Source: Ceraceosorus guamensis
Lineage: Eukaryota > Basidiomycota > Exobasidiomycetes > Ceraceosorales > Ceraceosoraceae
Assembly: GCF_003144195.1 (NCBI RefSeq)
Contig: NW_020290018.1
Span: forward strand, 16,916-80,915
DNA: 64,000 bases
Direction: 5' to 3'
Below are positions 38,105 through 46,086 of this stretch, one piece after another (position 1 is the stretch's first letter; the number at the start of each line of letters is the position of its first letter). A model generated the notes under the pieces. It worked only from the letters and a program-made list of their open reading frames with translations. It made no database searches and was not told where the DNA came from. Both the position numbers and the translations under genes were made by a program.

Positions 38105-38815
38105 TTCGTGGCTTTTTGTCGAGCGGGCCACAAATGCGAGGCAGAAGGCAGAGACAAGGAGCGAGCTGAGTGAGAATCTGGTCAATCACGAAAGTTCTCA
38201 GGAGGCAAGGCTGAGTGGGTAGTCTTGCGCGTCTGCTGGAGCGTCGAAATCGAAGTCTGATGAGAGTCGAGTTGAATGAGAATGACGAATGACGAATGCA
38301 AGAGACACGAGACACGAACTCGTGACTCAACTGCTTACTCAAATGGCTTTGAGTCACGAGTCGTGATAATCGTGAATTACGAATCTTCTTTTTTGATTCA
38401 AGATTGTGCAAGCAAGAGATGTGCTGCAGCGCGTATGCACGCGTTCGGTGGGCCTGTGCGTCATGTCATGCCTCTGCATATAAACATTCGTGATCATCAT
38501 GATAATCTTGAATTCTTGCTTTCAAGATTTGTTGTACCGCGTGCGTCAGCTTTCAGAAGCGGAGATCGAGCAACCTCCACACACGTGATCGCATCGAGGC
38601 GGGCAAAGTTCAAGTCGCAAGAATAAATATAACAACGGTACAGTACCGGTAATCGATCATGCAAGGCTGCGATGGGCGTGCACTCACCTCTTTCTCCATG
38701 CAAGGCTGCTGTGTGATCCACACTCACACTCACACTCACACTCACACTCACGCTCCAAACCTAATCCACTCCGATGCCACCTTGACAGGGCGTTGAGCCA
38801 AGCATCTTGCCAGCC
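38105..38815. promoter_or_regulatory. Shared divergent promoter of SDH7 and COQ8
   Basis: 711 bp separate the two start codons. The stretch holds a dense patch of TCACGAG/CTCGTGA words (38300–38400), CACGTG at 38582–38587 and a CTCACA hexamer repeat (38719–38752) about 65 bp upstream of COQ8. Both products serve the respiratory chain, so joint control is plausible but not shown. Confidence 0.45.
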
Positions 38816-41800
38816 ATGTCGTCGGCGCGCACAGCGCTCGCTTTGATCGCAGCCGCGCGCGCCCTCGCTTCCCAGACTCTGGCCGCTCAAGCTGCATCGC
38901 TATCGGCGTCGCAGCACAGAGCTGGGACTGCCAAGGAAGCTCACTTGCAGGACGATCTCCATCCACGGCAGCATGCTTCGTCTCATGACGATGCGCGCTC
39001 CCATGCAAATCCAGCATCCTCGAATGCCGATGGGTCAGATGCAGCCTTGCACACCTCCCCTTCTCGCTCAAGCATCGCATCCACCAGCGCACAGTCCGCA
39101 CAAGCCTTCAACAACGCTGCCGCCTCTTCTTCCTCAGCTTCGTCCCTTCATCAACCTCCACCTCCGCACCCGCACCCGCACCCGCACCCGCGCCCAACCC
39201 AGCCATGGCCATCAAAAGCACTGCAAGCTGCTGCTGCCCGAGATGGGTTGGTGGCCAATGCAGATTTGCCCTCGACAAGCTCGTCCAGGAACGATGAGAG
39301 CGAGCATGCCGATAGGCAGCTTCGAGTCGAGACTGTGACTCAGGCTCCAGTCTCTACACCGTACACGCCTTTCGCGTCAGATCCCAACGCGTCATTGCAG
39401 AATGAAGCGAGCGGAGCCGCGACGCTCGGCATACAAGCTTCGGCAAGGGACACGTCCAACCAGTCGATGATGCAGGTAGAAGCGAATCCTGAGCCAATGC
39501 TCACCAACGCCAGGCGCCCCTCCATGCCAGGGACATCAACGGCTACGCACCCGCTTACGGTGCAAGAGCAAAAACAGGGACGGCAGCTCGTGTTCGATGA
39601 CTACGATGCCACCACTGCCCCACGTGCCATTCCCTTGCAAGCAGCAAAGGTACCATCCTCGCGCTTCGCCCGAGCTCTTCACTACGGTGGGCTAGGCGTG
39701 GGTCTCGCGTGGGGAGCTGCTGGCTCGTACCTCACCGGCAACAGCTCGCGCTCCACTCAGGGCGGTGGCAGTGGCAGTGATGGAACTCGACAAGGTTCGC
39801 CAATTCTTGGGGAAGCCAATCTCCGCAGGCTGGTAGACAAGCTGAGCACGATGCGTGGCGCGGCTTTGAAGCTAGGGCAATTCCTCAGCATACAAGGTGC
39901 GTTGCGCTTCATCATGTGTCTAGTCTCCATCTTTTTCATCCCAGTCCATTGCAAGGTGGCGACAAAGGTGCTCAGCCTCTTCTCTGTACTAACCTGACCA
40001 ATCTTCAACGCTCCGCAGACAGCAACATGTTGCCTCCTCAACTGGAGGAAGTGCTGATGCGAGTGCAGAATAGCGCTCACTACATGCCGCAATGGCAGCT
40101 CGAGGTAAGACTCATCTGCTGCCCTCCAACTCACCATTGAGGCACAGTCCTAAGTGACTCCTCATCTTGCTTGGTCCCCTCTAGCGCGTCATGACGGCCG
40201 AGCTGGGCGCATCGTGGCGCTCACAATTCGACAAGTTCGACGATGTGCCATTCGCATCGGCTTCCATCGGCCAGGTGCACGCTGCTGTGGTCGCCACGGA
40301 TCACACCTCTCCCCTGGCTGGTCAGCGCGTTGCTGTCAAGGTGCAATTTCCCGGCGTGCGCGCCTCGATCGCGTCAGATCTAGGAAACCTTCGATGGCTT
40401 CTCGCAGTGTCTGCCGTCTTGCCCAAAGGTCTGTTCCTCGACAACACCATCCGCGTCATGAAGCGCGAGCTGGACGACGAGTGCGATTACGCGCGAGAAG
40501 CCGACATGATGCGTCGCTTTCGGTCCTTTATCGAGCACAGCGACGTCTTTGCAGTGCCTCGCGTGGTCGACGAATTGAGCACGGGTCAGGTGTTGACTAC
40601 GGAAATGATGCGTGGGCGTCCTTTGACACAGGCTGGCAGGTACACTCAGGAAAAGCGTAATCAGGTGAGGCGCTTGAGACGTGCGCATTGCAACTCGGAA
40701 CGGACCCGCTGATGCTTGACAACGCCACTAGATCGCGAGGTCAATTCTAGAGCTTTCGCTGAGGGAGCTGTTCGAGTATCGACTGATGCAGACAGATCCG
40801 AATTGGACAAATTTCTTGTTCAACGAAGCGACCAACAAGATCGAGCTCATCGACTTTGGTGCCGCACGAGCTTACGAAAAGGAGTTCATTGATGACTGGC
40901 TGTGCATGCTTCGCGCTGCGATCGGCGGTCAACGACAGGCCTGTATTGAATGGAGCGAAAAGGTTGGATACTTGACGGGACAAGAGTCTGAAGTGAGTGC
41001 GAGAGACATTGGTAAATTTGGCTGCACTTACACAACTCCCGCTCTATCTGCCTGCAGGCCATGCGTAATGCCCACGTCGACTCTATGATTGCATTGGGCG
41101 AGCCGTTCCGGCAAGACGCCCCCGACCCTTACCCTTTTGCAGAGCAGACCATCACTGCTCGTGTCCGAGCGCAGATACCTTTGATGCTCCGCGAACGCCT
41201 GACGCCGCCGCCGGAGCAGACCTACTCACTCAATCGCAAGTTGAGCGGTGCTTTCTTACTTTGCGCCCGGCTGGGCGCCCAGGTCAGCTGTAGCAACATG
41301 TTCGAGGAAGTGACGAGGGACTACATGTTGGGATCTGCTAGCTCCACGCCTCTGCCTTCCGACACCGCTCGACGTAATGGCAATGTGGGCGGTGATCAAG
41401 GGCAAAGACTTGACCTGGCTGGACGAAGGGCATTTCATAGCTCTGCCGCCCGCCATTCCCCTCCCGAGTCTCGTTATGGACCTGGCTTCACTTTCATCGA
41501 CAAGCTGCGGGAACGTGAGCAGAGGTGATTAGTGCTGGTCAAATACATGCGTTGCACCGTCGTACTAAGAGTGCTGTGTATGCCTGTCACCGCCTTGCGC
41601 ATCTCATCCAGGTCGCGTCAATCTAAATGATCGATGGCCAAGGCATGTCATCGCCGCCATACCCAATGCTCCCGATGCGGAGGATCCAGCCTCAAAAACG
41701 GCTCAAGTTGCGTCTCTCGCGCCGTCCGGCGGGACAGCAGCCCCGTCTCTACGGTCTACTGCGGACGACCCCGGGAGCCACAATCCCATCCTGCTGTCTG

Positions 41801-42352
41801 CTACAGTGCCAGCGCAGAAGAGCAGCCCTGCCGACAGCCCGACGACAGCAGCGAGTTCGGAGCCTGCCGCACCGATTCTTGTGCGCGGCATCAGTATACC
41901 CCCGAAGCCCGAGGCCCCTGGCTCTGAAGGTGAGCACGCGTCAACATTGGGTCAAACATGGGACCCACGCTGACCTCTAGTTCGGGCGCGGTGTAGACTG
42001 CTGTATGTCAGGTTGTGTGCATTGCGTATAGTGAGTCAGTCCCACGAATCTGCCGCGTCCTCATGCTGATAAGAGTCATCGTTGCATGAGCAGCGACATG
42101 TACGCCGACGACCTTGAAGCTTTTCACGAGGCCCGAAATCAGCTATTATCGCTGACGCCGCCTCTGACCGACGATGAGTGGCCAAGTCACCTGTTGGGGC
42201 CTCGACCTGAAACGGCACCCAACTTCAACGGGGCCAAGGAGCAAGCTCAGGCGGAGGCGGACGCTCATGAGAGTTCTCTGGATCCATCTATGCAAGCGTT
42301 CCTGGCCATGGAGCGGGGCATCAAAGCCAAGCGGGCAAATTCGCCGTCGTAG
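38816..42352 (+). CDS. COQ8: COQ8 atypical kinase read in frame into an OXLD1-type domain
   Basis: COQ8 (ABC1/ADCK) is an ATPase of the inner mitochondrial membrane needed for coenzyme Q synthesis. Exons 38816–39896, 40019–40104, 40185–40664, 40732–40992 and 41058–41514 encode KxGQ (ALKLGQFLSIQ), the Ala-rich loop (FASASIGQVH), VAVKVQFPG, DPNWTNFLF and LIDFGAAR, ending near FLLCARLGAQVSCSNMFEEV. Without splicing at 41515 the frame stops at 41528. Splicing 41514 to 41612 keeps the frame, and exons 41612–41929, 41997–42030 and 42094–42352 then add a Pro/Ala-rich linker and the oxidoreductase-like domain DCCMSGCVHCVYDMYADDL of OXLD1-type mitochondrial proteins; total 991 codons. An internal mitochondrial-presequence-like motif, RRAFHSSAARH (about residue 760), sits between the two parts. 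Either a fusion, or a second gene starting inside (ATG 41298 or 41325) that overlaps COQ8's end. Confidence 0.88.
41325..42352 (+). CDS. OXLD1: OXLD1-type oxidoreductase-like protein (alternative separate start)
   Basis: The alternative to a fusion is an independent product that starts within the COQ8 3' end, at ATG 41325 (or 41298), and uses exons to 41514, 41612–41929, 41997–42030 (34 nt) and 42094–42352; 266 residues. It would carry its own targeting region, RRAFHSSAARH being typical of fungal mitochondrial presequences. The Cys-rich motif CCMSGCVHC followed by VYDMYADDLEAFHEA defines the oxidoreductase-like family, whose reaction is unknown. No other in-frame ATG with a matching phase was found between the COQ8 domain and 41612, so this protein cannot be made without sequence shared with COQ8. 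Confidence 0.6.
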
Positions 42353-42454: not shown

Positions 42455-45261
42455 TCAGTCACCACCTCCCACCGAGTGAAGGTGAAATTGCATTCCGGCC
42501 ATCAAGGTGAGGAGCAGCACTTCGATGTCAGGAAACTAGCGCGACGACGCAAGAAGAATCGTGACTCGTCAACGACATGTACTGGGCGCAAGTGTGGCCA
42601 TCGTAAGACTCACGTTGGGCTCGACGCTCAGCAGTCCACCGCCTTTGCTTTGTCTGACATCTCGCACAAAGACGGCTCGGACGCGCTCGCGATTCGTTTT
42701 GGCGTCGAGGCTCTTCTCCACCAGCTTCATGAGGTGCGCGCCGCACCACTGCGGGTCAAAGCAGCGTCATATCCGTCAGATCTGGTCAGGTAAGGCGTGT
42801 CTGCACACACCGAGTAGGCGCACCTCGAAAGTTTGCTCCTTTTTAGTCGCGAAAGCGAGAGCGGTGGCAGTCAAAGGCACGCCCTTCTCGCGCCCAGGAA
42901 AACCAGGATCGAGCGGGATGGAGAAAGCCAATCTCTGTCCGTAGTAATCGGCTTTGCGGAACTCGCCCTCCCAGGGATCCTTGAAGGGCGTCTCTTCGTA
43001 CTCGGTCGACGTACCCGCTTGCATGCGTGGGATCGCGGCAGTTCGCGTACGCGCCACGTCCCAGCGATACTTTTTGCCCGGGATCACTTTGAGCACAGAA
43101 GGCTACAGCATGGTGGAACAATCATGGGCAGAGGTGGCGCATGTCAGGTGCCGTTCTCGAGCCGCGTGCTTGAGGAGTCAGGTGCACTCACTCCGGATCT
43201 ACCATTGCGATGCAGGTCGAGCCTCGTAGCTGCCGGTGCTGGCAACCAGCCCATGCCCAAGCCGACCGCTATGCCTGCACGCCTTTGCCTGATGGCGTAT
43301 ACCTCTCTCCCATCCGCAGTCGTAATGAGATGAGTGAGTTTGCCCTTGGACCCTCGGGCGTCCAAGTCCGTGCCGGGTGCACAAGGCACGATGTTGAGAG
43401 AGATGCGTTTTCGACTGTCCGTGTCGTCGAGCTCAGCCTCATTTTCAGCTGTGCTGATCTCCCTTGCCGCATCTGGAGAGATCAGGACTGGAATGGGTGC
43501 AAGGCTTGCCGCTACGCTGAGTACGCTCGACACACTCCCTTGCGTTCCCGAACGAGACCTCATTCCGCGCTTTTTAGACACCGATTGCGATGATGGGTGG
43601 TGAAAGGAGCTGTCACTGGACGAGCTATCGACGCGTCGAGGCTGTACTGAGCTCGGTCTATCGGGTCCTGCCGCTAGCACTTGTCTGAAAGCGGAAGAGT
43701 CGTCGCTTAGCGAAATGGAACGTCGCACACGCGCGAAGCCCCTTGCGCTCGGACTTGTTGCGCCGCTTCCACTGTCCTGTCGGGAAGAATTGGAGGAGCC
43801 TGCGTGTGATGGGGCTGGGCTTGGTGGCTCCTCGAGCATCTCCATTTCCGATGTGTCCACTGCTGCCTGCGCGCCCCCTATCGCATGGTCGAAAGCGGAA
43901 GCGCCAGCGGCGCTTGTTGAAGGAGACATGGCAGGTGAAGCGATGGCAGAGGAACTCTGGACAATCGTTCGCCCGCTCGAGCTTGGCAGCATCGACGCGC
44001 CACTGGTCTCTTTCGCCAGGCATGCGCTTCCGGAATCGTGTTGTGACGCACGTCTCGAGCGATCTTGGGGCGTTCGAGAAGATGATGCTCGACCTGTGGT
44101 CGATGCAGAGTCACCAGGCAGAGAGTGTTGCCGCAGACTTGCTGGGGAAGCGAGGGAGGCAGCTGGACTAGCGTAGGGACTGGACCGTGCACTATTGGCC
44201 GAGGATATATCGAGACTTGGAGCTTGGGCTGTAGGTCTCCGGCCTGCAAGCGCGCTTGTGGGGGACAAATGCCGCGGGCTACCCGCTACATTCTGCGCTT
44301 GCACGGGTCTGGCAAAGTTCGGCGGCAGGGGAGATACTTGTCGACGATGTGGCGCTGGCCCTGCAAGATCTTGTGCAGGATCCTCCGGTGAACGATTCGA
44401 TTGTATCGATGCCGAGCCTGTCTCGGGCGCGAGACGAAGCGCAGCTGCATTGGAAGGAGATAGGACGGTGTGTGCAGACAGTGTGCGAAGAGCTCTCAAC
44501 TTGCGCGAGCTCGAATTGTCATCGGTCGCGGCGCGCAGTGTCGCTGCAGAATTTGAGCAGAGATCCATGGGCGAGGATGGGGAGGAGGTGGATGCATGCG
44601 AGGCCGGCGCGACTGTCGCTGCGCTGACACTTGATCCCCGCTGTCCGTCTGCCCGCGTCCCGAAACCTCGACTCCTTGCAGACCTGGGCTCCGATTCAAG
44701 GGAGTGGGGTGACCGATGGCGACTTGCGGAAGAGTGTTGGTGAAGAGATGTCTGCTCGTGGTGCGAGGAATTTGTTTGGCTCAATGACGTGTTGCTGCCG
44801 CGGCCAGATCGAGCGTCTTCGACATAGGGATAGGACATGCTTGTAGAGAGCGAGGCAGGAGAAGTGGCAATCTGAGATCTGGAAGTGGAGGCAGAAGCAC
44901 CAGCCCCTGCAGCGTCAGGTTGAAGGTCCAGCAGCATATCGCTGGTCGCCAAGGTGCGCCGAACTGAAGCAGCGAATCGGCTGGCGAGGCGGCGGTGCGC
45001 TTTCAAGCCGCTATGTGAGGTGCTGCCAGGCTGCGATGCATGGCGTTCGTAAGGCGGTTTGACCGCAGCACCCGAGCTGGCGCTGGTAGAAGCCCTAGAT
45101 GGGCTCTCGCTGGGCCTGGAGGGACTGGCTGCAATGTCTGCAGCGCCGCCTCCCCCAACGCTGAAGGATGTCGCGCTGGTGTTTTGCGAGGCATATGCGC
45201 CGTGCTGACTGCCACTGCCGCCTGCCTTGGCTGGGCGTCTATCGGCTGAAGAGCGAAACAT
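42455..45261 (-). CDS. Ser-rich protein with conserved C-terminal domain, function unknown
   Basis: I do not recognise the family. Four exons: 45261–43192, 43102–42824, 42748–42614, 42535–42455; 854 residues from the first in-frame ATG. The frame stays open, with the same composition, upstream to 45660, so a further 5' exon is likely and the true start is unresolved; acceptors near 45594 or 45660 would fit. Roughly the first 620 residues are Ser/Ala/Pro/Arg-rich and disordered. The last ~240 residues look folded: RKRISLNIVPCAPGTDLD, KLTHLITTADGREVYAIRQR, GKKYRWDVARTRT, YGQRLAFSIPLDPGFPG, WCGAHLMKLVEKSLDAKTNR and LLLTLMAGMQFHLHSVGGGD. It converges with the COQ8 locus, 102 bp apart. Confidence 0.75.
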
Positions 45262-46086
45262 GGCATGGCTGCTGGACAGGGTGCTGCGTGAAGCTATGGA
45301 AGAGCTGTAGTGACTCAGATCATCGGCAGCGCGCGCTGGCCTCGAAGCTGGCCACGGTGCATTTGGGCGCGCTGCTGCTCCTGCTGCTGTAGCTGTAGCG
45401 GCTATTTGGCCCAACGCAGCGCTGCTCTTTGTAGATCGTAAGTTTGGCCTCTGTTTTGCTTGCCACTCAACCTGCCTGCCCGACGCCGAGGGCAGGTCAC
45501 CGAAGTTGTGACGGGCAGACACGGTGGGTGATGTTCTGAGCGCGCGCAAGGACCTAAGGCAGGCCTTGCTAGCAGTCTGCGATGTACAGGTGCTCTGCAC
45601 AGATGCTGCCGGCAGCGAATACTGGCGTATCGACGGATCCGCAGACGGGAGTGTACGGTGCTGTGATTAAGCACAAGGTGGCGGCTATTGTGCGTGGGAA
45701 CGGGAGCGAGGTAGGTGAATGGCTGATGATGGCAATGTCGACGTCGACGTCGAAGCACTCGTCGAGTGTCTGCACGGGCGCCTGAGGCCGAAGTGACCAC
45801 TCAGTGGTATGCGGCGTTTGTGGCAGGAGAGGGTTCCAGGAAGCACGTAGCGGACTCAAGAGAGGAGAGAGAAGCTTGACAGAGTACCGTGTGGCGTGTG
45901 TGTAGTTTGATAGATCTGAGCGAAGACAACGACCGCCACGAGATTTCATTCAAGAACGGCCCGCGGGGCTGGCTTGCGTGTATAGATGAATGACGAGATG
46001 ACGAGGGTGAAACATGCGCCGAGTGATCAAATCAGAATCAGAATCTTGTACGCCGTTCCTTCTCAAGTCGTGAGTCGTGAGCGAAG

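Follow-up and report, generated by a model that had tools for sequence, protein, structure and literature searches.

An in-frame COQ8-OXLD1-type gene model with a presequence-like motif at its joint, a candidate tandem mitochondrial precursor in Ceraceosorus guamensis

Two mitochondrial proteins can be produced from a single precursor. In yeast, the processing peptidase (MPP) makes Arg5 and Arg6 from one precursor, as demonstrated by experiment and credited to Friedl et al. 2020, and the composite precursors Atp25, Etp1 and Rsm22-Cox11 were found by motif search to carry internal MPP sites, as set out in the sections of PMC8847149 that deal with them. The same sections describe cleavage by MPP and then by Oct1 with the rule R-X↓(F/L/I)-X2-(T/S/G)-X4↓. 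In so far as they describe these systems, the locus reported here resembles them in that two mitochondrial proteins share one precursor with an internal presequence-like site; it differs in the protein pair, and its cleavage is predicted from sequence. Two features of a tandem precursor were found, namely two proteins in one frame of the spliced model and an internal MPP-type motif. A coarse search of the open-access literature, from which absence is not implied, did not find the COQ8-OXLD1 pair in print.

The window analyzed here, a stretch of 64,000 nucleotides, corresponds to positions 16916-80915 of one contig (C23) of the C. guamensis genome, which comprises 23.8 Mb in 199 contigs; its spliced genes with short introns and its set of mitochondrial genes are what would be expected of a fungus. 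Translation of the spliced model at 38816-42352 of the window revealed eight exons that together encode 991 residues in one open frame closed by a stop codon (Table 1). The exons are 1081, 86, 480, 261, 457, 318, 34 and 259 bases long, the introns measure 122, 80, 67, 65, 97, 67 and 63 bases, and the mass of the whole product calculated from its sequence, before any processing, is about 107 kDa. The first-pass annotation had proposed that joining 41514 to 41612 keeps the frame and that all eight exon lengths fit, and the 991-residue open frame confirmed the join and the overall model, while the start of the last exon had to be revised. A tandem acceptor, GAG/CAG, lies at 42091-42094, and use of its upstream site would add one serine beside the cysteine motif. 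When we compared the two sites, 42094 scored better than 42091 both as an acceptor (3.73 versus -2.23) and in the resulting match to PF09791 (74.8 versus 67.5 bits), which makes 42094 the most likely start of the last exon. Around the gene, a CACACT tandem repeat at 38719-38755 precedes the start codon by about 60 bases and probably belongs to the promoter or 5' leader, and a minus-strand open frame of 840 codons (43144-45666), serine-rich by eye, is located just downstream. A scan for bacterial-type promoters and terminators was set aside as uninformative for a fungus.

Table 1. Features of the gene model and of its joint, in window coordinates (a slash marks a splice boundary).
Feature	Position	Strand	Content	Basis
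Exon 1	38816..39896	+	start, presequence-like N-terminus (MSSARTALALIAAARALASQ...), ~250 low-complexity residues, start of COQ8 core	translation, position
Exon 2	40019..40104	+	COQ8	translation; COQ8A/B homology
Exon 3	40185..40664	+	COQ8 kinase core	translation, homology
Exon 4	40732..40992	+	COQ8 kinase core	translation, homology
Exon 5	41058..41514	+	end of COQ8, then stop-free tail with presequence-like motif	translation, homology
In-frame ATG (MLGSASS...)	41325..41327	+	possible internal start of an OXLD1-only product; T at -3	
RRAFHSSAARH	41424..41456	+	residues 759-769; presequence-like	COQ8 frame
Intron 5	41515..41611	+	97-nt joint intron, GTGAGC...CAG	branch-like CTAAG, 44 nt ahead of acceptor
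Competing donor GAG/GTGATT	41524	+	ten bases downstream of donor 41514	score 5.92 versus 6.54
TGA	41526..41528	+	first in-frame COQ8 stop if intron 5 is retained	
Exon 6	41612..41929	+	OXLD1-type linker, start of PF09791	translation, Pfam
Exon 7	41997..42030	+	CCMSGCVHC cysteine motif	PF09791, 7zm7_o alignment
Exon 8	42094..42352	+	remainder of OXLD1-type part and stop	acceptor and PF09791 scores

The structural comparison of the first half points to COQ8. The Pfam domain ABC1 matches residues 375-622 (E 4.5e-65, 219.6 bits against a cut-off of 22.9), and comparison with the PDB gave the COQ8B entry 9tvk at E 7.6e-128 as well as COQ8A structures, the alignment of the core running over residues 42-483 of the COQ8B chain of 9tvk, which is 487 residues long. 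Three UbiB-like matches in NCBIfam were all under their own cut-offs. The sequence RGAALKLGQFLSIQD, which we take to be the COQ8-type KxGQ motif, reads much like the COQ8 chains in the alignments, while the ABC1 paralogues on contigs C34 and C15 read GLYTKLGQ and GLYIKLGQ, and the pieces analysed from contigs C4 and C106 contain no such KxGQ-type motif on the matched strand. Based on these comparisons, which cover the ABC1 matches on C34, C15, C4 and C106, we suggest that the first half of 38816-42352 is likely the true COQ8 of this genome. Compared with COQ8A and COQ8B, the core and the motif are alike, whereas about 280 residues precede the core here and a second protein follows at the C-terminus. 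The core starts at residue 283 (RFARALHYGG...), 282 residues being ahead of it, and its homology ends at residue 726 in the COQ8A alignments and at residue 736 in the COQ8B alignment, corresponding to 41325-41357. In the presequence-like N-terminus, residues 1-30 contain no acidic residue and have a charge of +2 and a largest hydrophobic moment of 0.35. The pre-core region (38816-39661) is mostly of low complexity, and it includes an HPHPHPHP run encoded by a six-base tandem repeat at 39164-39195.

In the second half, the PF09791 "Oxidored-like" domain covers residues 879-922 (E 8.2e-20), scoring 70.7 bits within the fusion and 74.8 bits as a separate piece against a cut-off of 24. This agrees with the oxidoreductase-like domain named by the first-pass annotation, and the domain contains CCMSGC..C, presumably the OXLD1-type cysteine motif as in human OXLD1 (C17orf90). 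In humans, OXLD1 is a separate gene. The sole PDB match of the second half at E<=10 was chain o of 7zm7 (E 2.5e-9, residues 809-921), where RGISIPPKPEAPGSEDCCMSGCVHCVYDMYADDLEAF is aligned to AGVLVPPQPTEPDNCCMSGCVNCVWDAYREEMEAW. Chain o has 380 residues and is named for its oxidoreductase-like domain alone, whereas the domain is joined to COQ8 here, and the alignment spans only residues 162-269 of the chain. Since 7zm7 contains the 49-kDa complex I subunit as chain C, which is matched by one open frame of the genome's own 49-kDa protein, the entry is a complex I structure; we take it to be from Chaetomium thermophilum. By this alignment, a relative of the OXLD1-type part is located within a solved complex I, a point beyond the first-pass annotation. 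NDUFX was ruled out as the name of this chain by bridge-domain identity and distribution, in so far as the excerpted descriptions of NDUFX cover them: there it is a bridge-domain subunit of plants, alveolates and Euglena, and Chaetomium complex I is without a ferredoxin bridge.

When the genome was searched at protein level for the OXLD1 part, this locus and a protein on contig C168 (41% over 32 residues) were retrieved, and a second OXLD1-type copy was not found in this search, which an intron-split copy could escape. The other PF09791 protein, on C168 (L009 1339-1749), is a single open frame with 31.9 bits against the cut-off of 24 and a different cysteine motif of the DCCGSSCQPC type; it has no match to 7zm7 chain o at E<=10, and its best hit to any solved structure is not significant (E 0.11). 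A weak match to the OXLD1 part was seen on the minus strand of contig C2 (280445-280615, E 0.07, 37%), and a PF09791 match on contig C18 was set aside, as it scored 18.8 bits, under the cut-off, and the cysteine motif was absent in frame. Scans of viral contigs and prokaryote genomes gave no relatives of the OXLD1 part.

The joint between the two halves was examined with regard to its frame, its splice sites and chance. After the end of the COQ8 homology, the frame stays stop-free until 41528, past the strong donor at 41514. With a score of 6.54, this donor is the best within 41300-41560; it is in the top 1.1% of the sampled GT sites and at the 37th percentile of the donors used for training. 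For the acceptor at 41612 the score is 3.28, which puts it in the top 11.1% of the sampled AG sites and at the 15th percentile of the training acceptors. In the tail encoded by exon 5, the codon score is +0.4 in the joined frame and -4.0 and -11.2 in the others, and in exon 6 it is -0.2 in the joined frame, which is free of stops, and -13.7 and -16.3 in the other two, which contain stops. Since a run of 61 open codons has a chance of 0.19 in composition-matched sequence, with a phase match expected in 1 of 3 cases, openness by itself says little. The joint in part exceeds chance, because homology-supported domains stand at both of its ends, the joined frame has no ATG from 41529 on, and the strict form of the motif is rare. 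Searched alone, the tail piece had no significant PDB match (best E 1.1). Joining the competing donor at 41524 to the acceptor at 41612 leaves the fusion frame, and COQ8 would end a few codons later; this tandem donor could switch between fusion and COQ8-only messages.

These scores come from splice and codon models trained on the genome itself. The first was trained unsupervised on 166 kb in 34 sequences, namely the window and 33 of 39 loci, the six overlapping loci being dropped from the gene-finder training set. Its gene finder was too permissive and was discarded, and a stricter model with 100 introns and penalties set by hand was used for the splice and codon scores. Under this model, the donor of exon 1 (AAG/GTGCGT) ranks in the top 0.5% of the sampled GT sites, and exon 3 has a codon log-odds of +14.1 in frame and -31.9 and -39.0 in the other frames, both with stops. 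The homology-supported acceptors at 40732 (-1.08) and 41997 (1.65, first percentile of trained sites) score worse than that at 41612, and the splice model is thus a rough guide; because of its poor acceptor score, the boundary of exon 4 rests on homology and frame.

The strict gene finder placed COQ8 and exon 8 in one gene. However, its inner path differs, with a start at 39467, an exon-4 start at 40792, donor 41524, and exons 6 and 7 skipped, and it alone therefore does not confirm the junction. We ranked the 35 one-gene paths that connect exon 5 with exon 7 in frame. The 41514/41612 pair was fourth, with a score of -7.18; the three paths ahead of it go to acceptor 41807 (-4.97), straight into exon 7 (-5.65) and to acceptor 41852 (-7.00). 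These three need introns of 292, 482 and 337 bases, respectively, the path score containing no intron-length penalty; the other introns of the gene are 63-122 bases long, and the middle half of the trained introns is 77-120 bases. Donor 41514 is used in nine of the best 15 of the 35 paths, including the top six. The fusion is kept in all 35, since the listing was restricted to paths that enter exon 7 in frame.

The first-pass annotation also placed RRAFHSSAARH between the two parts, and we found it there in the COQ8 frame. Read as R-A↓F-H-S-S-A-A-R-H↓, it matches the R-10 rule, and the new end would be serine 770. This R-10-type rule is loose, as residue 286 of the same protein also matches, and the Icp55 rule fits poorly, with H after F where the consensus has S or A. 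Apart from RRAFHSSAARH, no site in the protein matches R.[FYL][HSATG][STA][STA]. By odds calculated post hoc, 60 residues of this composition should contain the strict pattern R.FH[ST][ST]A 6e-6 times and the looser motif 0.012 times. The looser motif occurred 8 times in 18,321 predicted residues, counting this site, roughly double the expected number, and at that rate about 0.026 would fall in 60 residues. In a census of the genome DNA, the motif was not enriched over the reversed control (CGN, 22 versus 17; AGR, 5 versus 7), and inspection of 27 census loci by eye, with the downstream frames for 14 of them, gave no clear set of presequences. A broader census pattern was dropped, with 274 matches against 357 in the control. 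The 44 residues from MLGS to AARH include three acidic residues and have a net charge of +3. The 12 most positively charged 30-residue windows listed for the protein include none from the tail.

We then considered whether the OXLD1-type part has a start of its own. The first-pass annotation had left a fusion and two overlapping transcripts side by side, and had named as its refuting case two ordinary neighbours, the second beginning with an independent ATG at 41345-41612. The exon-6 frame contains no ATG at 41529-42020, that is, none before the cysteine motif, and the OXLD1-type part is therefore not an ordinary neighbour: it is joined to COQ8 or has its start within COQ8. This conclusion covers ATG starts within 41000-41611, a non-ATG start or a farther first exon being exceptions. 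The refuting case is further weakened in that own-start first exons within 41345-41612 lie in a different frame and have negative codon scores. Of 269 own-start paths, the best scored -15.3 and the best 20 are all in the COQ8 frame; of the gap between these and the one-gene paths, 10 units are penalties set by the analyst. Two overlapping genes in different frames, with COQ8 ending at the TGA of 41528 and OXLD1 starting at 41377, 41383 or 41476 and spliced from 41524 to 41612, are improbable. Such paths have an open frame that continues into that of exon 6, their donor scores 5.92, and the starts have G at -3 in all three cases and G at +4 in two. However, their codon scores are -1.6, -1.5 and -3.9, respectively, they are absent from the best 20 of the 269 paths, their N-termini are not presequence-like by eye, and RRAFHSSAARH would be a coincidence. 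Two nested transcripts in the same frame are also unlikely, though to a lesser degree. They would comprise the long COQ8 message, ending at 41528 or reading into the fusion, and a short one from the ATG at 41325 or 41298 inside exon 5, for which RRAFHSSAARH would be an ordinary N-terminal presequence. The two ATGs stand 34 and 43 residues before the motif, an ordinary presequence length, and 41298 has A at -3. On the other side, 41325 has T at that position, the product of 41298 (MFEEVTRDY) begins acidic, and transcription would have to start within coding sequence, adding a gene boundary without evidence. Between the two, the fusion is favoured over separate overlapping transcripts.

A sequence or assembly error, in which a small indel at 41330-41424 hides the COQ8 stop and fuses two ordinary genes, is very improbable: one other frame of the tail does contain five stops, but no run of at least five identical bases occurs in 41124-41693, and the exon-6 frame would still be without an ATG after 41528. 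If the fusion is translated, the product might also stay uncut, which would tether COQ8 and the OXLD1-type domain to each other, possibly at complex I. The single frame, the long linker between the domains and the location of an OXLD1 relative in the complex I structure are consistent with such a protein. However, a cut is what the joint motif predicts, and yeast Arg5,6 is cut according to the relevant part of PMC8847149, and we give the uncut protein little weight.

Taken together, an in-frame fusion product of some kind, whether cut, uncut or accompanied by a nested product, is probable. Our preferred reading, which we hold with slightly better than even confidence and by analogy with yeast Arg5,6, is one precursor in which COQ8 and the OXLD1-type protein are fused and then cut in the matrix. 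In favor of it, the 991-residue frame is open with ABC1 and PF09791 far over their cut-offs, the COQ8 homology runs straight into the tail up to the best donor, no ATG is present in the exon-6 frame, and no second OXLD1-type copy was found in the genome; further points in favor are the match of the motif to the rule, its being the sole R.[FYL][HSATG][STA][STA] site in the protein and the internal-MPP precedents. Against it, the gene finder differs, 41514/41612 is ranked fourth and 41524 is nearly as strong a donor; further points against are the unenriched census, the looseness of the rule (residue 286), the misfit to the Icp55 rule and the weak charge of the tail. We infer the use of the 41514/41612 splice as well as import, topology, cleavage and the complex I role. 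One gene would encode COQ8 and, with no intervening stop, an entire OXLD1-type protein that keeps its former presequence, and the N-terminus would direct a single import event. COQ8 is located on the matrix side of the inner membrane, and its membrane segment and kinase would settle there, matrix-facing. MPP would then cut at RRA↓F within the tail and Oct1 eight residues further on, before SPPESRYG, so that a separate OXLD1-type protein may be released for complex I. By their sequence, the two pieces would have masses of at most about 82 and 23 kDa, the first being smaller still once its own presequence is removed.

If so, COQ8-OXLD1 would add a new pair to the known mitochondrial tandem precursors with an internal processing site. 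The OXLD1 family is little studied: in the open-access literature searched, 20 papers contain the name OXLD1 and 9 C17orf90, in no case in the title, and none contains PF09791. The fusion together with the relative in complex I gives a testable hint that places this family between coenzyme Q production and complex I. It is a tentative and rather doubtful suggestion that a fungal lineage fused the kinase of coenzyme Q assembly with a protein associated with complex I, which may give equal amounts of the two or a physical link between them. If true, quinone supply and the quinone-reducing complex would be coupled, and OXLD1 would have a role at the interface of coenzyme Q and complex I.
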